From Paracoccaceae bacterium (GTDB taxonomy: Bacteria; Pseudomonadota; Alphaproteobacteria; Rhodobacterales; Rhodobacteraceae): 46,270 bases of DNA. Location of the stretch: the NCBI GenBank assembly GCA_020447005.1, contig JAGRDO010000032.1, forward strand, positions 1-46,270, written 5' to 3'. Each line of letters begins with the position of its first letter. The first letter of the stretch is position 1. A model generated the notes under the pieces. The model did no database searches, was not told the origin of the DNA, and saw only the letters and a list, made by a program, of their open reading frames with translations. Positions 2,174 to 10,660 of the stretch are shown here, one piece after another. A program made the position numbers and the translations under genes.

Positions 2174-2754
2174 TGTTCCTGCGGCGTCGGGTCAGGATCG
2201 AGACCGAGCGGATGACGCTGCGCCTGCCGAGCCATTCCGACTATCAGGCCTGGAGCAGTCTGCGCCAGCAAAGCCGCGATTTCCTGCTGCCCTGGGAACC
2301 GACATGGGCGCCGGACCATCTGAGCCGGAAGGCCTTTACCAACCGTGTCTACTGGGCCCAGCGCGCCAATTCCGGCGGCACGGCGATGCCGCTGTTCATG
2401 ATCCGCCGGGGGGACGGATCGGTTCTTGGCGCGGTCACGGTGGACAATATCCGGCGCGGGCCCGCACAGGCGGCGACCATCGGGTACTGGATCGGCGCGC
2501 CATATGCCCGGCAGGGATACATGACCGAGGCCCTTCGCGCGGTCATCCATCACTGTTTCACCGCGCTTGACCTCAGCCGGCTGGAAAGCGCCTGCCTGCC
2601 GGAAAACGCCGCGTCGCGCGGGGTGCTCGAAAAATGCGGCTACAAGTACGAAGGTGTGGCGCAAAGCTATCTTCAGATCAACGGCCGCTGGCGTAACCAC
2701 GTGCTTTACGCCAATCTGCGCCACGACCGCCGTGGCCGGACGGATATGGGATAG
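2173..2754 (+). CDS. RimJ/RimL-like GNAT N-acetyltransferase
   Basis: A 193-residue GNAT-fold acetyltransferase of the ribosomal-protein N-terminal-alanine type (RimJ/Acetyltransf_3). Seen in the sequence: an early TERMTLRLP strand, the GYWIGAPYARQGYMTEALRAV segment that carries the acetyl-CoA pyrophosphate loop, and the NAASRGVLEKCGYKYEG ending typical of RimJ-like enzymes. The start ATG shares one base with the TGA of the peptidase gene (TGATG), so it is the third gene of a thrC-M16-GNAT transcription unit. The real acceptor (a ribosomal protein, an antibiotic or another amine) cannot be read from the sequence. Confidence 0.88.
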   Translation: MFLRRRVRIETERMTLRLPSHSDYQAWSSLRQQSRDFLLPWEPTWAPDHLSRKAFTNRVYWAQRANSGGTAMPLFMIRRGDGSVLGAVTVDNIRRGPAQAATIGYWIGAPYARQGYMTEALRAVIHHCFTALDLSRLESACLPENAASRGVLEKCGYKYEGVAQSYLQINGRWRNHVLYANLRHDRRGRTDMG

Positions 2755-2797
2755 GCGGCGCGGACCGGAATTTAGGGTGAAACCGGGAGGTTATCGG

Positions 2798-3520
2798 ATG
2801 ATCATTGGCCATATCGGTGTCCGCAAGGGATCGCGCGGGGTTCCGGGCAAGAATTTTCAACGAATCTGCGGGAGGCCATTGATCGACTGGTCGCTCGACC
2901 AGCTTTTTGAAAACCCGCAGATCGATACGGTCGTGGTTTCGACCGACAGCGAAGAGATTCTGGAACATGCGCTGAAACGCGGATGTCTGGATATCGGATT
3001 GCGGCCGGATCATCTGGCGACGGATACGGCGGCGAAATGGGATGTGTGGCGGCATGCCCTGGAAGCTTGCGAGGCCATTGTCGGCCCGGCTGACATCTTC
3101 CTTGATCTTGACGCGACCTCGCCCCTGCGGATGCCCGAGGATGTGTCCGGCGCGCTCGATCTGTTTCAGGCGGAACGGCCGGACATGGTGATGTCCTGCT
3201 CGATCTCGCGCAAGAACCCCTATTTCAATATCGTCGAGGCGGATGCCAGCGGCGCGCTTCATGTGTCCAAGCCTTTGCCGAACAACGTGGTTGCCCGGCA
3301 GCAGGCACCGATGGTCTATGACCATGTGGGCGTCGTCTATGCCGTCGCGCCCGACTACCTGCGCCGCGCGCGCGCGCTGTTCGAAGGCCGGGTGATCCCC
3401 TTCGTCGTGCCCAACGAACGTTCGCTTGACATCGACAGCCCGCTTGACTGGGAAATCGTCGAAATCCTGCTGGGCCGCCAGATCGCGCAGGGTGTGCGAA
3501 AGGTGCCCGATCAGACCTGA
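2798..3520 (+). CDS. neuA: CMP-sialic acid (nonulosonate) cytidylyltransferase
   Basis: A 240-residue nucleotidyltransferase of the CMP-N-acylneuraminate synthetase family, which activates a nine-carbon keto-sugar with CTP. The N-terminal nucleotide-binding loop reads RKGSRGVPGKN, a variant of the family motif; STDSEEI and LDATSPLR (metal and sugar binding) follow, and the protein ends with the NERSLDIDSPLDW segment of NeuA/LegF proteins. The start at 2798 is chosen over upstream in-frame codons because GGGAGG lies 7 bases before it and family homology begins there. It is the first gene of the glycan locus; neuC and neuB lie on the other strand. Its 3' end overlaps the convergent GT30-like gene by 10 bases. 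Sugar specificity (Neu5Ac or legionaminate) is inferred from neuB/neuC, not from this protein. Confidence 0.88.
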   Translation: MIIGHIGVRKGSRGVPGKNFQRICGRPLIDWSLDQLFENPQIDTVVVSTDSEEILEHALKRGCLDIGLRPDHLATDTAAKWDVWRHALEACEAIVGPADIFLDLDATSPLRMPEDVSGALDLFQAERPDMVMSCSISRKNPYFNIVEADASGALHVSKPLPNNVVARQQAPMVYDHVGVVYAVAPDYLRRARALFEGRVIPFVVPNERSLDIDSPLDWEIVEILLGRQIAQGVRKVPDQT

Positions 3521-4851
3521 TCGCCGCGACAGGTTCCGATCAGCTGCGGAATGGCCGCCAGCGTGCGTTTGGCCGCGCCGCGATGGGCGTCAAAGAAGGC
3601 GTCTATCGTGGCGGCATCCGGAAGCGCGGCATCGGGGGCCAGCGCATCGGCCAGCGCGTCGGGGGGCACGATGCGGCAAACCCCGGCCGCCACGGCCTCG
3701 ACAGCCGGAAATTCGATCGTCCATGTCGAAGGACCGACGATCACCGGTTTCTTCAGCGCCAGCGGTTCGATGATGTTATGCGCCCCGGCGGCGCGATAGC
3801 CGCCCCCGACGATCACGAGATCGGCAAGGGCAAGGTAGAAATACATCTCTCCCAGACTGTCGCCGAGAAGGATGTCGGTGTCGCCGAGGGGACCGGTCGC
3901 GGTCAGGTCCCGGTCGAAGACCTTCGACCGGCGAAGGACGCCCAGCCCCGCGGTGGCGATCATCCCCGCGACCTCGTCAAACCGTTCGGGCGCCCGGGGC
4001 ACATAGACGAAAAGCGGCATCGGCAGGCCGGCGCGGGCATGGTTTTCGCGGGTCTGGCGAATGGCCGAGAGGTAAAGCGGATCTTCGCCATTGACGGCGC
4101 TGGCGATCGTGATCACACGCCGGCCGGCACCGAAGGCGGGCCGCGCGGCGGCGGCGGCGGCGATCTGGGCGGGCGGGACCGGCTGGTCAAAGCGGGTTTC
4201 GCCGGTAATGGCGATATTGGTCACGCCGGCGGTGGCGAACCGTTCGCGTTGCAGTTCGGATTTCACCAAAGCGCCGGCAAAGCCGCGCATCAGTTCAGCG
4301 CGAAGTTTCGTGCGGTGCAGATCGCGCTCATAGGATTTCGACGGATATTGCGCGTTGCACATGAAAAGCGGCAGCCCCGCGCGGCGGCATTCCATGATCA
4401 TCACCGGCCAGACCTCGATTTCCATCACCAGCCCGTAGCGCGGGGCGAAGTGGCGGATGAAGCGGCGCATGGCGGGGCCAAGCTCTAACGGTACCCAGAC
4501 CGGGCGGACCTGTCCGGCCCTGATCTCATCACCGAAAAGGCGCGCGGATTCGCGGCGCCCGGCGGGGGTGAAATGGGTCAGAAGCACGCGTTCGCCGCGC
4601 GTGAGAAGTGCGCGGATCAGGGGGGTGGCCGACCGAAGCTCGCCAAGGGAAACGGCATGGATCCAGACCGGCGCTTCGCCGGGCCAGTCCGGGTAGAGGC
4701 CGAAGCGTTCGCGCAGGTGGCGGCCATAATCGGGATCGCGCCGGGTGCGGCGCCAGAGATAGACGAGCACCGCCGGAAGCCCGAGCCACCAGAGCGCCCG
4801 GTAAAGGACCAGCGCCATCCGCAAGCGCGGCGAGGGAAACCGCCCGCCCAT
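3511..4851 (-). CDS. GT30-like glycosyltransferase (Kdo-transferase family), copy 1
   Basis: A 446-residue protein of the WaaA/KdtA (3-deoxy-D-manno-octulosonate transferase) family. A hydrophobic N-terminal segment (about residues 12-34) would anchor it to the inner membrane. Family blocks appear in order: HAVSLGE (65-71, with the catalytic-base glutamate), LTHFTPAGRRES, MEIEVWP (in place of ETEIWP), GETRFDQP (for GNxKFD), ASAVNGED (for GSTHxGEE), PRAPERF, GDSLGEM and VGGGYRAAGAHNIIEP. It therefore looks active but diverges in the acceptor-side blocks. Its start overlaps the stop of the second copy (ATGA), and it lies between neuA and neuC, so a nonulosonate such as CMP-sialic acid is a plausible donor. 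It could equally be the housekeeping Kdo transferase. Confidence 0.85.
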   Translation of the reverse strand: MGGRFPSPRLRMALVLYRALWWLGLPAVLVYLWRRTRRDPDYGRHLRERFGLYPDWPGEAPVWIHAVSLGELRSATPLIRALLTRGERVLLTHFTPAGRRESARLFGDEIRAGQVRPVWVPLELGPAMRRFIRHFAPRYGLVMEIEVWPVMIMECRRAGLPLFMCNAQYPSKSYERDLHRTKLRAELMRGFAGALVKSELQRERFATAGVTNIAITGETRFDQPVPPAQIAAAAAARPAFGAGRRVITIASAVNGEDPLYLSAIRQTRENHARAGLPMPLFVYVPRAPERFDEVAGMIATAGLGVLRRSKVFDRDLTATGPLGDTDILLGDSLGEMYFYLALADLVIVGGGYRAAGAHNIIEPLALKKPVIVGPSTWTIEFPAVEAVAAGVCRIVPPDALADALAPDAALPDAATIDAFFDAHRGAAKRTLAAIPQLIGTCRGDQV

Positions 4852-6131
4852 CAGCCACGCCCCGGCATGAGCGCGAGCAGGCGCGTGGCGAGGATCGTCA
4901 CATCCTGCGACCCGGCCGTCGCAAGTGCCTGCCCCCGGGTGGCCATTGCCGTCAGGTCGCGGCCAAGGGCCGTCACCAGGGCAGCGGCATCGGCCACGGC
5001 CAGGGCGGCGTCTTCCCCGTCAAGCCGGGCATAGTCGGCGGCGAAATTCGCCGTCCGTGGCCCGTGAAGCACAGCGGCGCCAAGGCGCGCGGGTTCCCAC
5101 GGGTTGTGGCCTTCGACGGGGCCGAAGGTGCCGCCCATCAGCACGGCAGGGCAGAGCCGGTACCAAAGACCCATTTCGCCAAAGGTATCGGCGACATGAA
5201 CCTGATCGCCCGGTCTGGGCAGTTGCGGGCCATTGGCCGATGCACGCAGCGACACGGCCAGCCCTGCCTTCTCTGCGGCCCCGGCAATCCCGGCCCCGCG
5301 GCCGGGCTGGCGCGGCGCGATGATCAACAGCGCGCGCGGGTCGGATTTCACGATCTGGCGATGGGCGGCAAGGGCAATCGCCTCGTCAAAGTCATGCGAG
5401 GAGGCAAGGCACCAGACCCGGCGCCGGGCAAGCTCCCTGCGCATGGCCTGCAGCGCGGCGGCGTCCACCGACAGGGGCGGCGTCGCGGCCTTGAGCGAGA
5501 CATGGGTCAGGACCGGGCCCTTCGCGCCCAGCCGGGTCAGTGCGGCGGCGGTTTCAGCATCCTGCGCGGCCAGCAGCGAAAAGCGCGCGTAAAGATCGCC
5601 GTAAAGCCCCCCGGCGCGTCCCCGCGCGGCGGCCGCGCGCGGGTTCAGCCGCCCGTTTACCAGGGCGAGCGGGATATCGCGGCGTGCCGCCTCGACAACC
5701 ATCCCGGGCCAGAGATCCTGTTCGGACCAGACCGAAAGGTCCGGCCGCCAGTGATCGAAGAACGGCCGGTAAAAGCGCGGTGCGTCGATGGGCAGGAACT
5801 GATGCTGCGTGCGCGGTGGCAGGTTCGCGGCGAATACGCTGGCCGAGCTGCGCGCAGTGGAGGTGACAAGGAACGACAGTCCGGGCGCCTGCGCCGCCAG
5901 TTCGTCGATCAGCCCGCGCAGGGCCATCACCTCGCCCAGCCCGACCGCATGCAGCCAGACCAACGGCCCCGATGGCCGGCGCGCGCCGGTCTGGCCAAGC
6001 TTTTCGGACATGCGCGCGGGGTCTTCCTTGCCGCGTTTCAGGCGGCGGCGCAAAAGCGCGGGGGCAAGCGGGGCAAGCAGGGGTGTCGCGGCAAGGTACA
6101 GCCGCAGCGCCCATCCGGCCGGCGCGGTCAT
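4851..6131 (-). CDS. GT30-like glycosyltransferase (Kdo-transferase family), copy 2, divergent
   Basis: A 426-residue second member of the WaaA/KdtA family, next to and coupled with copy 1. It keeps the first catalytic block (HAVGLGE) and the C-terminal nucleotide block (ADTFGEMGLWYRLCP, then GGTFGPVEGHNPWEP), but other motifs have drifted: EQDLWP for ETEIWP, NGRLNPRA, THVSLK for GNxK, ASSHDFDEA for GSTHxGEE and PRQPGRG for PRHPERF. Length is normal and the frame is clean, so it is a diverged enzyme and not a broken one. Its ATG overlaps the neuC stop (ATGA), which places it in the neuC operon. I infer that it transfers a nonulosonate or another keto-sugar to the glycan; this is not shown by sequence alone. 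Confidence 0.82.
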   Translation of the reverse strand: MTAPAGWALRLYLAATPLLAPLAPALLRRRLKRGKEDPARMSEKLGQTGARRPSGPLVWLHAVGLGEVMALRGLIDELAAQAPGLSFLVTSTARSSASVFAANLPPRTQHQFLPIDAPRFYRPFFDHWRPDLSVWSEQDLWPGMVVEAARRDIPLALVNGRLNPRAAAARGRAGGLYGDLYARFSLLAAQDAETAAALTRLGAKGPVLTHVSLKAATPPLSVDAAALQAMRRELARRRVWCLASSHDFDEAIALAAHRQIVKSDPRALLIIAPRQPGRGAGIAGAAEKAGLAVSLRASANGPQLPRPGDQVHVADTFGEMGLWYRLCPAVLMGGTFGPVEGHNPWEPARLGAAVLHGPRTANFAADYARLDGEDAALAVADAAALVTALGRDLTAMATRGQALATAGSQDVTILATRLLALMPGRG

Positions 6132-7261
6132 GCCCCGGTCCGGGTGAAGTCGCGAAACTGCTTCTGCATGCCGCGCGCCCAGAAGGCGGGGTCGTTCAGC
6201 ACCTCGACAAATCTGGCCGCTGCGCGCCCTGCGCCAAAGGCGGTGTGCCGGTCATAGCGCCGCCCCCATTCTTCGGAAAGAAAGGTCGCGATTGCGGCGC
6301 TGTCCCCGGCCCGCGCGGCGCGGATCGTCGGCGCATCCGAGCGGTTCGTCTGCCGGGTGCCGATGTCCAGCGACGGCAGACCGAGAAACGGCGCTTCGCG
6401 CACCCCGGCGGAAGAATTGCCGACCATGACGGCGGCGTTCTTCATCAATTCGGAAAAATGCGCAAAGCGCATCGAGGGCAGCACCCGGAACCGGTCCCTG
6501 GGCAGGCCTTCGATCGCGGCAAAGATCGCCTCGGACCCCGGATCGTTGTTCGGCGCGATCAGCACGAAATTGCGGCCCGATGCCTGCAAGGCGCCGAACA
6601 GGGCCGTGGATTGCTGCCCCATGGTGGCCGCTTCGGAGGTGACCGGGTGAAAGACGCAGATACCGTAATCGGCAAACGGGATGGCATATCGGTCCCGCAC
6701 ATCGGCGATGCCGACACCGGACGGAGCGGCGTGGAAATCCAGTTCGGGAGAGCCGATCACATGGATCGCGTCATCGGGTTCGCCAAGGGCGCGGACCCGG
6801 TCGGCGGCGGCCTCGGACGACACGAAGTGATGCCCGGCAAGCTTGGTGTTGCAGTGGCGGAACACCTCGTCGATCGTGCCCGAGACCTCGCCGCCCTCGA
6901 TATGGGCCGAGCGGATGTAATTCGTTGCCGTGACCAGCGCGGTTGCCAGCGCCTCGACCCTGTCGCCATGGATCACGACCAGATCGGGCCGGTGTTCGGT
7001 AACGAAATCGGAAAAGCCCGTGACGGTCTTGGCAAGGATCACATCCTGCGGATCGCCCGGCCGCTGGTTGAGGAATTCGTGCACCGCGACGCCGGCCATC
7101 CGGTGAACCTCGTGCTTGGTCAGCCCGTAGCGGTCGAGCATGTGCATCCCGGTGACGAAAAAGGCCACGCGGTACCCGGCATCCCGCGCGGCGATGGCAA
7201 GCGGTTCCAGCTTGCCGAAATCGGCGCGCGTTCCGGTAACGAAGAGAAGCGAGCGGGTCAT
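6128..7261 (-). CDS. neuC: UDP-N-acetylglucosamine 2-epimerase (hydrolysing), NeuC type
   Basis: A 377-residue hydrolysing UDP-GlcNAc 2-epimerase, which yields N-acetylmannosamine for sialic acid synthesis. Seen: the N-terminal TGTRADFGKLEP block, VTGMHMLDRYG, VIHGDRVEAL, HIEGGEVSGTIDE, CVFHPVTSEA, the NSSAGVREAP block and GTRQTNR. From memory these match Neisseria SiaA/NeuC block for block, which favours Neu5Ac over legionaminate. The start is set at 7261 and not at an upstream codon, because the ATG there overlaps the TGA of the methyltransferase gene (ATGA) and homology begins at once. The stop overlaps the start of the downstream GT30-like gene, so methyltransferase, neuC and both GT30-like genes form one coupled unit. 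Confidence 0.93.
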   Translation of the reverse strand: MTRSLLFVTGTRADFGKLEPLAIAARDAGYRVAFFVTGMHMLDRYGLTKHEVHRMAGVAVHEFLNQRPGDPQDVILAKTVTGFSDFVTEHRPDLVVIHGDRVEALATALVTATNYIRSAHIEGGEVSGTIDEVFRHCNTKLAGHHFVSSEAAADRVRALGEPDDAIHVIGSPELDFHAAPSGVGIADVRDRYAIPFADYGICVFHPVTSEAATMGQQSTALFGALQASGRNFVLIAPNNDPGSEAIFAAIEGLPRDRFRVLPSMRFAHFSELMKNAAVMVGNSSAGVREAPFLGLPSLDIGTRQTNRSDAPTIRAARAGDSAAIATFLSEEWGRRYDRHTAFGAGRAAARFVEVLNDPAFWARGMQKQFRDFTRTGA

Positions 7262-7956
7262 TTTGCTTCGGGGGCCGATGTCGGTTCGGGCAGGTCGGCA
7301 ATCGTCCAGATACCCATGCATTTGTCACTGTGCTGGCCCGACGCATTCACGAACTTCTCGTCAACGACATGCAAGGGTTCGGGAAAGTTGAACGGTGGCT
7401 TGCACAGGTCCAAGGGACGCCACTGGCCGGTCAGAATGTCGGCATTCGCCGCCGTGGACGGAAAATTCGTCGCCATCAGATAGGTTGCCCCGCTTTTGCG
7501 GATATTGCTGACGGCCGCGCTGGCATCGGCAAGCGACAGATGCACAAGACAATCGCGTGTAAAGATCATGTCGGCATGGGGCAACGGGGTTTTCATCAGG
7601 TTGATGACGGTGAACCGCACCCTGTCCGACCCGTGGCGCTTGGTATTGTCCGCGATCAGCGCCGGTACGATATCGCCGCCGGTATAGTCGATCCCGGCCA
7701 TATCGACCCGGGACATCCAGTTGAAATCGCCGCAGGGCACATCAAGCAGGGACTTGACCCCGAACCGCGCAAAGACCCCCGGCAGGGCTGCGCGCAGGGC
7801 CGCCGTCACCGCAAGGTTGGAGCCCTTTCCCGACGCGCTTTCCCGGTCGCCCCATGAGTTCCTGGCGTAATAGCGTGAAAAGGTTTCCTCTGCGGTTTCC
7901 CGCTCCAGACGCTTGATACGCCTTTTTTGGCGAAGGGCTTTGAGCAAGCCGAACAT
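7258..7956 (-). CDS. SAM-dependent methyltransferase of the glycan locus
   Basis: A 232-residue class I methyltransferase. The SAM-binding motif I is LLDVPCGDFNWM (about residues 70-81), followed by a motif II-like YTGGDIVPALI and a post-motif region TRDCLVHLSLADA. The N-terminus is very basic (KALRQKRRIKRLER), and no signal peptide or membrane segment is visible. It is the first gene of the coupled minus-strand unit methyltransferase-neuC-GT30-GT30, which suggests a sugar O-methyltransferase acting on the surface glycan. The substrate is inferred from context only. The 159-base gap upstream, shared with the divergent glycosyltransferase, should hold its promoter; I could not pick out convincing boxes. 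Confidence 0.8.
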   Translation of the reverse strand: MFGLLKALRQKRRIKRLERETAEETFSRYYARNSWGDRESASGKGSNLAVTAALRAALPGVFARFGVKSLLDVPCGDFNWMSRVDMAGIDYTGGDIVPALIADNTKRHGSDRVRFTVINLMKTPLPHADMIFTRDCLVHLSLADASAAVSNIRKSGATYLMATNFPSTAANADILTGQWRPLDLCKPPFNFPEPLHVVDEKFVNASGQHSDKCMGIWTIADLPEPTSAPEAK

Positions 7957-8115
7957 GATCCGATCCGTCGGTGATTGATAGACCTAGCCAATACCGGGCC
8001 TTCGCGGGCAGGCAAAGCGAAAACATGATTACAGGGCGTCACGGCGATCCGGACTTCTGGACAGGGCATGTCCACTCGACTACCAGTCCTTCCAGACACG
8101 GGGAGGACCGACGCG

Positions 8116-8928
8116 GTGGCGAAAGATCAGCCGAAGATCGTGCTTTGCATGAAATGGGGTTCGCTCTATCCGGCAAGCTACGTGAATGTACTGCATTCGG
8201 CGGTGCGCCGGCATCTGTCGGGCGATGTGCGTTTCGTCTGCCTCACCCCGGAGCCGGAAGGACTAGACGACGGGATCGAAACTTTTCCGATCCCCGATCT
8301 CGGCTATGGCCCCCGCCACTGGAAACGCGGGGCATGGCCGAAGCTTTCGGTTTTTGTCCCGGACCTTTACGGGCTGCGCGGGCGAGCGCTGTTCATCGAT
8401 CTCGATTCCGTAATTCTTGAGGATCTCGACCCGTTTTTCGAGGTTCCGGGGGATCTGGTTTCCATTGCCGGAGGGCCGGGATGGCGGCGGGGAAGCCTGA
8501 ACCCCACGCCGTCGCTCGCCTCTGGCGTCTTCAGCTTCGATCTGGGCGCGCAGGCGCAGATCGCCGAGCGGTTTCAGGCAGACCCCGAGGGCGCCTTCGA
8601 TACGTTCGGCATCGAACAGCGCTTTGTTCAGGCCCATGTCACCGCATGGGAAACCTGGCCGCGCGAATGGGTGATCAGCTTCAAGAAACATCTGCGCAGG
8701 CCGATGGTTCTTGATCGGCTGCTGGCGCCACGCCTGCCCGATCCCGGCACAAGGATCGTGGCCTTTCACGGAGACCCGCGCCCGATCGACGTCACCCGTC
8801 CGGACCGGTCATCCTGGGCCGCCTTTCCGCGCTATGGCCGCGGGGCCATTCCATGGGTGCGGAACTATTGGCTGGAAAACGGGTTCACGGACGGGCCTCA
8901 GGCAAAATCCGGCAGGTCGCGGGAATAA
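8116..8928 (+). CDS. Putative DxD glycosyltransferase
   Basis: A 270-residue protein with the look of a GT-A nucleotide-sugar transferase: an N-terminal KIVLCMKWG strand, a central FIDLDSVILEDLDPFF block whose D-L-D serves as metal-binding DxD, and a C-terminal VAFHGDPRP histidine segment as in GT8-like enzymes. I choose the GTG at 8116 because a strong GGGGAGG lies 10 bases upstream; an in-frame ATG at 8068 would add 16 residues with a poor ribosome site. It is transcribed against the rest of the locus, and its last 31 bases overlap the 3' end of the convergent sulfotransferase gene. Donor and acceptor are unknown; membership of the glycan locus is inferred from position. Confidence 0.75.
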   Translation: MAKDQPKIVLCMKWGSLYPASYVNVLHSAVRRHLSGDVRFVCLTPEPEGLDDGIETFPIPDLGYGPRHWKRGAWPKLSVFVPDLYGLRGRALFIDLDSVILEDLDPFFEVPGDLVSIAGGPGWRRGSLNPTPSLASGVFSFDLGAQAQIAERFQADPEGAFDTFGIEQRFVQAHVTAWETWPREWVISFKKHLRRPMVLDRLLAPRLPDPGTRIVAFHGDPRPIDVTRPDRSSWAAFPRYGRGAIPWVRNYWLENGFTDGPQAKSGRSRE

Positions 8929-9572
8929 CCGATCAGATCGAAATCGCGGTCATAGATCTTGCGGACCAGATCGGCGGTTTCATCGGTGTAATAGCTGGAC
9001 ATCGGTTTCTTGCCGGCCTTGGTCTTGTTGACATGGCGCAGGGCGAAATCCGGCAGCTTCAGGTCGCGGCTCAGCTCTTCCAGCTCGGCGTTCAGGTTTT
9101 CGAACCTTACCAGCCGCCTGACGGCGAGATCGCCCGCCGCATCGGTCAGGTAGTAGCTTTGATCCGGCATCCGGGCAAAGATCGTGTCGTTCCAGATCGG
9201 CGGTTTCATGCGGTATTCAAGGTAGTCGCGGAACGACATGCGCCCGACCTTGTCGGCGGTCGACTTGATGCGGAACTGCTTCATGTATTCGTAATGCGAG
9301 ACCGCGTGGTCGAACGGATTGCGCACGACCGAAAAGCTGAGAAACCCGTCGAAGACAGGGCGCGAGAGTTTCGCGATCATCTTCGACGCCGGTTCGTGAA
9401 CCCGGAAATGCGCGGCAGAGGGGCTTTCCTTGTAGGGCATGCGCCGCGAGATCGAGCGCCAGATCGTCCGGCCGCGCGGACGGCCGTATTTGCCGAACGC
9501 ATCGGTCACCGAAAGCCCGGCGGTCTTCGGAATATGGACAAAGATGAAATTGTATTTTTCAGAAATGATCAT
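8898..9572 (-). CDS. Sulfotransferase (PAPS-dependent, family 2)
   Basis: A 224-residue carbohydrate sulfotransferase of the sulfotransfer_2 type. The PAPS 5'-phosphosulfate loop is at the N-terminus (FVHIPKTAGLSV) and the 3'-phosphate motif follows (FSVVRNPFDHAVSHYEY). The start at 9572 is preferred over an ATG nine codons upstream because homology starts at once with the first beta strand and a GAAGG-like site precedes it. The family normally sulfates glycan hydroxyl or amino groups. Lying between neuB and the glycosyltransferase gene, it suggests that the nonulosonate-containing glycan is also sulfated; that is inference. Confidence 0.85.
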   Translation of the reverse strand: MIISEKYNFIFVHIPKTAGLSVTDAFGKYGRPRGRTIWRSISRRMPYKESPSAAHFRVHEPASKMIAKLSRPVFDGFLSFSVVRNPFDHAVSHYEYMKQFRIKSTADKVGRMSFRDYLEYRMKPPIWNDTIFARMPDQSYYLTDAAGDLAVRRLVRFENLNAELEELSRDLKLPDFALRHVNKTKAGKKPMSSYYTDETADLVRKIYDRDFDLIGYSRDLPDFA

Positions 9573-9628
9573 CCGATTGCCTTCGTGATCGCCGCGCACC
9601 GGCGCTATAGTGGAAACCGCCTATCGGC

Positions 9629-10660
9629 TCAATCCGCCAGATCGCTCCACTTCAGTTGCGTGTTCCGCGTGACCGCGCGGGTCAGCCGCCGGCCCAGCAC
9701 CTTGTCGAAGTCATAGCCCGCGATTTCGCCCGAGCCGGGGCGGCGGGCCCAGATGTCGGCCTCGGTGATGACATGGCCTTGCGGCAGGTCGCGGTCGGCC
9801 ACGACGCTGGCGCGGGCGAAGCGGTAGACCGGTTCTTCCGCCGCCGTCCTTTGCTTTGGATTGTTCGTGGCAATCCAGATTTCGCGCGAGCGGTCGATCA
9901 AGAGTTTCAGCTCGGCAGGGTCCATCGAATTGATGATGTCGGGGCCCTTGCGATAGCGCGTATCGGTATAGTGCCGTTCGAGGATCGCCGCACCGAGGGC
10001 GACCGAGGCCAGCGCCATTTCGGGGCCGATCGAATGATCGGAAAAGCCGACCACGGCATTCGGAAAGGCCTGTCGCAGGTCGCTGACGCCCCTGAGCGAG
10101 ACGATGTCCGGCGGGCTGGGGTAAAGATTGGTGCATTCCAGAAGCGCATAGTCGATCCCGGCCGCATCGAGGATGGCGACCGAGGCGCGCAGGCTCTCGA
10201 TCGTCTGCATGCCCGTCGACATGATCACCGGCTTGCCCTTGCGCGCGATATGGCGGATCAGCGGCAGGTTGTCCGCCTCGCCCGAGCCGATCTTGTAGGC
10301 GGGCACGTCCAGCTCTTCGAGAAAATCCGCCGCGGCGCGCGAAAACGGCGTCGAGATCCAGATCATCCCGAGGCTTTCGGTATAGCGCTTCAGCTCTGCC
10401 TCATCCTCGCGCGACAGCGCGCAGGCGGCCATCACGTCCCAGATCGAGACATCGGCATTCGGCGGGAAGATCGACTTGGCCTCATCCGTCATCTCGTCTT
10501 CGAGGATATGGGTCTGATGCTTGACCATCTCGCAGCCCGCCAGCGCGGCAAGACGCACCATTTCCTTGGCCACGGCCAGATCGCCGCCATGGTTGATGCC
10601 GATCTCGGCAATGACGAGCGGCGGGTGTTGGGGCGAAATCTCGCGGCCTGCGATATTCAT
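9629..10660 (-). CDS. neuB: N-acetylneuraminate synthase
   Basis: A 343-residue sialic acid synthase, which condenses ManNAc with phosphoenolpyruvate. The TIM-barrel domain carries AEIGINHGG (E19), VKHQTHILEDEMTDEAK (K47), STPFSRAA, YKIGSGEADN and the metal-binding histidines in GFSDHS (H209) and LERHYTD (H230). The C-terminal antifreeze-like SAF domain (about 280-343) holds WARRPGSG, whose arginine reaches the partner active site in the Neisseria enzyme. VKHQTHI..DEM and IPPNADVSI-like spacing resemble Neisseria NeuB more than PseI or LegI as I recall them, so Neu5Ac is the best guess for the product. It is transcribed alone or with the downstream sulfotransferase gene (56-base gap). Confidence 0.94.
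   Translation of the reverse strand: MNIAGREISPQHPPLVIAEIGINHGGDLAVAKEMVRLAALAGCEMVKHQTHILEDEMTDEAKSIFPPNADVSIWDVMAACALSREDEAELKRYTESLGMIWISTPFSRAAADFLEELDVPAYKIGSGEADNLPLIRHIARKGKPVIMSTGMQTIESLRASVAILDAAGIDYALLECTNLYPSPPDIVSLRGVSDLRQAFPNAVVGFSDHSIGPEMALASVALGAAILERHYTDTRYRKGPDIINSMDPAELKLLIDRSREIWIATNNPKQRTAAEEPVYRFARASVVADRDLPQGHVITEADIWARRPGSGEIAGYDFDKVLGRRLTRAVTRNTQLKWSDLAD

Follow-up and report, generated by a model that had tools for sequence, protein, structure and literature searches.

Glycosyltransferases of family GT30 are known for the transfer of 3-deoxy-D-manno-oct-2-ulosonic acid (Kdo), which has long been seen as a near-universal first residue of the lipopolysaccharide (LPS) core, and to our knowledge the family is a Kdo-only one; CMP-sialic acid is used by families GT29, GT38, GT42, GT52 and GT80. 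The DNA analyzed here (the window) is a 46,270-nucleotide stretch of contig JAGRDO010000032.1 of a Paracoccaceae bacterium, in which two adjacent genes of GT30 type, GTa and GTb, lie between neuA and neuC in a cassette of nonulosonate synthesis genes:

GTa, positions 3511-4851, minus strand: GT30-type protein of 446 aa, candidate CMP-nonulosonate transferase (PF04413, 151.7 bits)
GTb, positions 4851-6131, minus strand: GT30-type protein of 426 aa, probable relocated housekeeping WaaA, a Kdo transferase (PF04413, 154.4 bits)

Both open reading frames (ORFs) are present between the two neu genes, as the original prediction had it, and both matches lie far above the PF04413 cut-off of 23.9 bits. 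That prediction took the two as tandem copies and as candidate nonulosonate transferases alike. Their phylogeny, genomic association, residue conservation and predicted fold suggest instead that the pair joins one old and one new function, and we consider it fairly probable that GTb is WaaA and that GTa is a donor-switched GT30 enzyme, which transfers a CMP-activated nonulosonate to the inner core.

A tree of 158 rows (quick method, rooted at the midpoint) places the 53 GTa rows in one clade with a support of 100, separate from WaaA that represents 29 further alphaproteobacterial families. The tree holds 5 of the 20 rows of GTc, a weak GT30 linked to lpxK, and was made without most GTc rows, duplicate loci of one gene, L047, L053, L054 and L161. 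Among the 35 GTb rows, 34 form a clade at 100 that lies inside the WaaA of the family at 98, and the 35th, from G221, groups with the WaaA of genomes in which GTa stands without GTb (solo-GTa genomes). A more careful tree of 33 rows agrees for both proteins, with GTb and the WaaA of solo-GTa genomes grouped at 100/98; it does not resolve the WaaA of the family from that of other Alphaproteobacteria. A recent tandem duplication of waaA that left both functions unchanged would fit the adjacency of the two genes, their similar lengths and their shared Pfam family, yet it is highly improbable: it is contradicted by the trees, and an approximately unbiased (AU) test rejected a single clade of GTa and GTb, a group picked after the first tree (p-AU = 0.00012). 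When betaproteobacterial and gammaproteobacterial WaaA were added, GTa joined the WaaA of Neisseria (100/98) rather than that of Alphaproteobacteria, though grouping with the latter was not rejected (AU test, P = 0.355), and on these trees the import of GTa from another class is possible. The earlier remark that the second copy (GTb) had drifted most is misleading, as GTb is the copy that groups with housekeeping WaaA.

We then surveyed 394 genomes of the family, about one per genus, with GTa counted at E ≤ 1e-60, NeuB counted at E ≤ 1e-30 and NeuB types split at 400 bits. GTa was matched in 70 genomes, 67 of which carry a NeuB/PseI-type synthase. The cassette-type (type-1) NeuB is found in 62 genomes, and 58 of these show a GTa match, compared with 12 of the 332 genomes that lack such a NeuB (P = 3e-52, Fisher's test, relatedness ignored). 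Nine of these 12 bear a type-2 (PseI-like) NeuB, which in seven cases lies 27-1078 bp from GTa; among the last three, a NeuA-like gene adjoins GTa in G175 and G342 but not in G215. For a closer view of gene order we used the best 80 of at least 577 relatives, ranked by score (the named GTa loci), in which GTb occurs 71 times, NeuC 69 times, NeuB 60 times and NeuA 59 times.

The derived members of GTa lie in neu loci, and the basal members in pseudaminate loci without GTb. Pseudaminate genes or a PseI-like NeuB accompany seven of the eight basal GTa (L101-L107 and L130); for L130 the contig does not reach far enough to judge. The genes PseB-PseC-PseF-PseI-GTa are consecutive in L105 and L106; in L105, PseB, PseC and PseF lie above their cut-offs in NCBIfam, and PseI narrowly misses its own (339.2, cut-off 340.25). 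Similarly, a run of pse-type genes directly precedes GTa in L210 and L218 (PseG and PseI of L210 are above cut-off), and NeuC directly precedes GTa in L198, L205 (Amylibacter kogurei) and L213, where GTb is absent. A third context, seen in L117, L118 and L120, consists of a DegT aminotransferase, a NeuA-like CMP-sugar synthetase, a GMC oxidoreductase and GTa, possibly an amino-ulosonate pathway of unknown kind. This arrangement was recorded at L117:6901-11529, L118:2284-7081, L120:4674-9328 and L243:5523-10317. The recurring partner of GTa is a CMP-activated ulosonate pathway rather than GTb. Judged from sequence comparison, GTa is a distinct GT30 branch whose presence tracks nonulosonate synthesis genes across dozens of genera. 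The earlier proposal of a GT30 branch recruiting CMP-sialic acid or a similar sugar, which was to be checked by co-occurrence with neuABC, thus keeps its force for GTa, whose clade tracks NeuB or pse genes, and loses it for GTb, which groups as housekeeping WaaA.

Residue roles of Aquifex WaaA, taken from the portion of PMC6286764 available, were mapped onto an alignment of GTa and GTb. A full start was seen in 75 of the 80 named GTa, and 53 of these together with the window protein make up the GTa alignment. GTa of the window retains S68, G70, E71, E144, R286, N359 and E362, and carries R220 at the position of the WaaA lysine. In Aquifex numbering, S28, G30, E31, E98, P211, R212, N273 and E276 are each retained in 52-53 of the 53 GTa rows. 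The available text of PMC6286764 suggests that K162 of Aquifex WaaA may contact the Kdo carboxylate; this position is Arg in 45 of the 53 GTa rows and in 79 of the 80 named GTa, and Lys in all of 35 GTb, 36 housekeeping-locus GT30 (GTs) and 29 alphaproteobacterial WaaA. Furthermore, Lys197 is present in 53/53 GTa, where WaaA mostly has Gln (95/100). In the basal pse-linked clade the WaaA lysine is retained in seven of eight members. The Lys-to-Arg change is not a clean switch between Neu-type and pseudaminate donors, as the pse-linked L104, L210 and L218 have Arg.

The AlphaFold model of GTa (pLDDT 96.0, pTM 0.92) includes an N-terminal helix, and its best match in the PDB is Aquifex WaaA (2xci, E = 4.4e-19). 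GTa scores under the cut-off of its NCBIfam WaaA equivalog (361.4 against 524), as do GTb (264.4 against 617) and the housekeeping-locus GTs L026 (287.9 against 438). PF04413 is the sole Pfam match of GTa, with no sialyltransferase family domain and no Capsule_synth domain (PF05159) as in KpsS/KpsC (GT118/GT107), and the (K/R)XHP motif is not present in its sequence.

The donor, acceptor, linkage and mechanism that we infer are as follows. GTb would add Kdo to the lipid A precursor. GTa would be an inverting GT-B enzyme with a WaaA-type mechanism, in which the donor has changed to a CMP-activated nonulosonate, probably a Neu-type sugar from NeuC-NeuB-NeuA at this locus and pseudaminate in the basal relatives. 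By mapping from Aquifex WaaA, Glu71 would serve as the base, Glu144 and Arg220 would handle the donor carboxylate, and Arg286, Asn359 and Glu362 would hold CMP. The nonulosonate would be attached to the inner core, beside Kdo or in its place; the likeliest acceptor is Kdo-lipid A where WaaA is present, and where WaaA has been lost the sugar may perhaps go straight onto lipid A. This donor is proposed because of the association with nonulosonate genes and the Lys-to-Arg change, and this acceptor because of homology, linkage to waaA and the loss of WaaA in some genomes. The proposal leaves room for some residual activity of GTa with Kdo.

GTb is probably a relocated housekeeping WaaA, because the tree, synteny, residues and mutual exclusion with other strong GT30 genes all favor a housekeeping Kdo transferase over the nonulosonate transferase first proposed. 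In the window's genus, 17 strong GT30 genes form one clade and are in most cases flanked by hut genes and, at the opposite end, by threonine dehydratase-NUDIX-DUF1178-SDR-lysC-ptsP, so that the LysC-PtsP block is a waaA neighbor in this genus. In eight of the 80 named loci (L177, L180, L181, L183, L186, L199, L233 and L237, from Yoonia and others), a NeuC-GTb-GTa run lies near LysC-PtsP, with NUDIX-DUF1178-LysC-PtsP following the pair a few genes on. In this genus, the housekeeping GTs (17 rows among L015-L034) have Thr at the phosphate-binding Asn273 in 17/17.

In the genus, a single strong GT30 is present in 17 of the 18 genomes that do not have the pair, and the remaining one, G013, has a contig-edge fragment; none of the four with the neu cassette and the pair (G000, G003, G011 and G015) has another strong GT30. 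Across the 70 GTa genomes, other GT30 genes were counted as matches of at least 120 bits among the matches listed. A second GT30 adjoins GTa in 45 genomes, none of which has any further one; 16 have a second GT30 elsewhere only (that of G289 is half-length), and nine have neither. The combination named in the original prediction as telling against a new donor, namely no other WaaA in the genome and a copy that groups with housekeeping WaaA, is thus seen for GTb and not for GTa. GTb of the window also retains E67, E137, K214, R274 and E346 (Aquifex E31, E98, K162, R212 and E276); among the 35 GTb rows, E31, K162, R212 and E276 are retained in all and E98 in 33. At S28, S54 and R56, the residues proposed to bind the lipid A 1-phosphate, it has G64, A93 and S95; S54 and R56 vary in ordinary WaaA too.

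The nine GTa genomes without another strong GT30 give mixed results on what GTa transfers. KdsA, LpxC and LpxK were surveyed in 16 genomes. In G301, a metagenome-assembled genome (MAG) of 96% completeness, GTa is the sole GT30, NeuC, NeuB and a NeuA-like gene adjoin it, and LpxC and LpxK are present; neither KdsA nor KdsB was matched there, and it is the only one of the 16 without KdsA. In the middle of a contig of this genome, about 50 bp separate LpxK from a TldD-like gene; in G140, G351 and others, inositol monophosphatase and GTc are found between the two. G301 fits a swap of nonulosonate for Kdo and hints at one, a single MAG being weak ground. The bolder view, that GTa founds a nonulosonate-specific GT30 branch with lipid A itself as acceptor and that some marine Rhodobacteraceae, G301 being the single case found, have a Kdo-free inner core, is doubtful on present evidence. 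Loss of the Kdo pathway as a general reason for GTa is ruled out by a strong KdsB match in 22/22 genomes of the genus.

Several observations weigh against the donor switch, or against parts of the reading that rests on it. G140, G203, G351, G366 and G190 (98-100% complete) carry KdsA, KdsB, LpxC and LpxK, and GTa is their sole intact-looking GT30, the second being a GTc without key residues; GTa may therefore transfer Kdo in these five genomes, or Kdo may be placed by something else. In G215 (93% complete), which has KdsA, LpxC and LpxK, GTa sits at the waaA-lysC-ptsP locus, and a search of the genome gave no match to KdsB, NeuA or NeuB. The change from Lys to Arg is not universal, as Lys is retained in 8 of the 53 GTa rows. 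Four of the 62 genomes with type-1 NeuB show no GTa match (G037, G041, G257 and G355); in G037 a gene of GT4 type is next to NeuB, in G257 there are other pathway genes, and for G041 and G355 the contigs available are short. In 6 of the 80 named loci, no NeuA, NeuB or NeuC was found in the locus DNA available. On the side of GTb, 34 of the 35 rows have Gly in place of Ser28, which has been proposed to contact a lipid A phosphate, and the activity of GTb itself is therefore not certain. Finally, because NeuA and NeuB of the window do not reach their cut-offs in NCBIfam, it is not certain that the sugar is Neu5Ac.

The five kds-bearing genomes could be explained by a promiscuous GTa that accepts both CMP-Kdo and CMP-nonulosonate and so allows WaaA to be lost, a view that overlaps with the donor switch. 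Four of the five fall in the basal pse-linked clade, in which the WaaA lysine is mostly kept. As 61 of the 70 GTa genomes retain one other strong GT30 (including the half-length gene of G289), GTa is no general replacement for WaaA, and we regard promiscuity as possible but rather unlikely. The same five genomes, together with the position of GTa at the waaA locus of G215, would also be expected if GTa were still a Kdo transferase, adding either a further Kdo or the Kdo onto which another enzyme links the nonulosonate. GTa does keep the CMP-site residues and the catalytic Glu of WaaA, and its linkage to neu and pse genes would follow because it would build their acceptor. Against this, GTa has no match in 324 of the 394 genomes, and in L105 and L106 the pse genes lead directly into it; the three flanking genes of L105 that were scanned, unlike its other flanking genes, which were not, are no glycosyltransferases. 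Moreover, G301 retains GTa where kdsA and kdsB were not found, and GTa differs from WaaA at Lys197 (53/53), which is mostly Gln in WaaA, and at Arg220 (45/53), which is Lys in every WaaA. That GTa is still a Kdo transferase is thus unlikely, and we continue to favor a GTa that has switched to a CMP-nonulosonate.

The remaining genes of the cassette are as follows:

2798-3520, plus strand: NeuA-type CMP-acylneuraminate synthetase, convergent with GTa (PF02348, 60.2 bits)
6128-7321, minus strand: NeuC-type hydrolyzing UDP-GlcNAc 2-epimerase (NCBIfam NeuC_NnaA, 332.9 bits, cut-off 235.9)
7258-7956, minus strand: methyltransferase-like protein, a variable accessory of the cassette (Methyltransf matches under Pfam cut-offs)
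8068-8928, plus strand: ORF without Pfam or NCBIfam match (homologs in 22 of the 80 named GTa loci)
8898-9599, minus strand: sulfotransferase-like protein, a variable accessory (PF03567, 42.7 bits)
9629-10660, minus strand: NeuB-type nonulosonate synthase with SAF domain (PF03102, 226.1 bits; PF08666, 45.2 bits)

The cassette runs NeuA(+), GTa(-), GTb(-), NeuC(-), accessory genes, NeuB(-), and its order from NeuA to NeuC recurs in three further genomes of the genus, with homologs 64-68% identical. The ORF of NeuA spans 2567-3520, and its start was set at 2798 by the sequence MIIGHIG common to relatives. The best NCBIfam match of NeuA is PseF (89 bits, cut-off 205.7) and that of NeuB is NeuB_NnaB (339.6, cut-off 399.65); the product of the cassette is a nonulosonate, probably of Neu type, and its identity as Neu5Ac is not sure. 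The ATGA overlap that had been assigned to the GT30 pair couples neuC to GTb, and GTb and GTa meet at TGATG with a 1-base overlap. The noted lack of the usual sialyltransferase families was confirmed for the ten proteins scanned (nine from the cassette and its flanks, plus GTc), in which no such domain was found; the remaining window and the genome were not searched.

GTb-GTa pairs were also seen in L225, L229, L230, L236 and L238 (Natronohydrobacter and Shimia), in which the locus DNA gave no NeuA, NeuB or NeuC match and the genome elsewhere was not checked. L208, a 7 kb contig labeled Chromatiales with NeuB-NeuC-GTb-GTa, is probably a misbinned Rhodobacteraceae contig. In G289, a single-contig genome with a pse-GTa run, kdsB has an internal stop and the waaA frame is half-length (L317:8208-11382), due to decay or sequencing error.

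The lpxK-linked GT30 had been taken as the housekeeping WaaA of the same genome. This protein, GTc (L003/L004), is found in 20 of the 22 genomes of the genus and lacks the catalytic residues: E31, E98 and R212 are each missing from 26 of the 27 GTc, and that of G140 retains E31 and K162 without E98 or R212. GTc is thus unlikely to be the housekeeping WaaA and looks like a conserved pseudo-enzyme. It adjoins lpxK wherever seen, at L004:5391-6617 and in the homologs L035-L052, L054 and L280-L286. A fourth GT30-like match of 85-113 bits occurs at G030:C3:2175660, at G369:C2:482013 and in G397 (C7:87018 or C10:190470), and G359 has four GT30 matches too. A plasmid collection gave 32 records; the 15 matches listed are at 29.8-33.9% identity, and the annotated ones are named waaA.

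If GTa has the proposed activity, GT30 would gain a branch with a function new to the family, in which sialic acid or pseudaminate is the donor sugar, and GTa would fill the place of the missing nonulosonate transferase in dozens of Rhodobacteraceae genera that carry neu or pse genes. GTa and GTb would form an enzyme pair in which the choice between eight-carbon and nine-carbon ulosonate donors may trace to a few residues, and G301 makes Kdo replacement in LPS testable. In the available part of PMC9631793, which cites Krauss 1992, the LPS of Rhodobacter capsulatus is among those with sialic acid; GTa might bear on this if that species has it. The literature matches listed contained nothing that connects GT30 with sialic acid or nonulosonates.

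The closest described enzyme is WaaA/KdtA of Aquifex aeolicus (GT30, PDB 2xci/2xcu), with which GTa shares the fold, the N-terminal helix and the equivalents of E31, E98, R212, N273 and E276; it differs in the Arg at Lys162 (45/53), the Gln-to-Lys change at Lys197, its separate clade and its linkage to nonulosonate genes. The domains of GT29, GT38, GT42, GT52 and GT80, which are named together with the (K/R)XHP motif in the accessible text of PMC12887879, do not occur in GTa, and none of these families is among the 50 structural matches listed. KdoT of Acinetobacter, as described in the part of PMC12856342 available, is a second enzyme that shares inner-core ulosonate transfer with WaaA, as proposed for GTa; unlike GTa, it is labeled ELM1-like rather than GT30, and its donor is CMP-Kdo. 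KpsS1 of Acinetobacter baumannii (GT118) is given in the accessible text of PMC12887879 as a retaining pseudaminyltransferase related to retaining Kdo transferases. On that account it belongs to the KpsC/KpsS lineage, whereas GTa has no Capsule_synth match and a WaaA-like fold; like the proposed GTa, KpsS1 is a Kdo-transferase-related enzyme with a nonulosonate donor, and in a different lineage it offers, by analogy, a precedent for recruitment of this kind.

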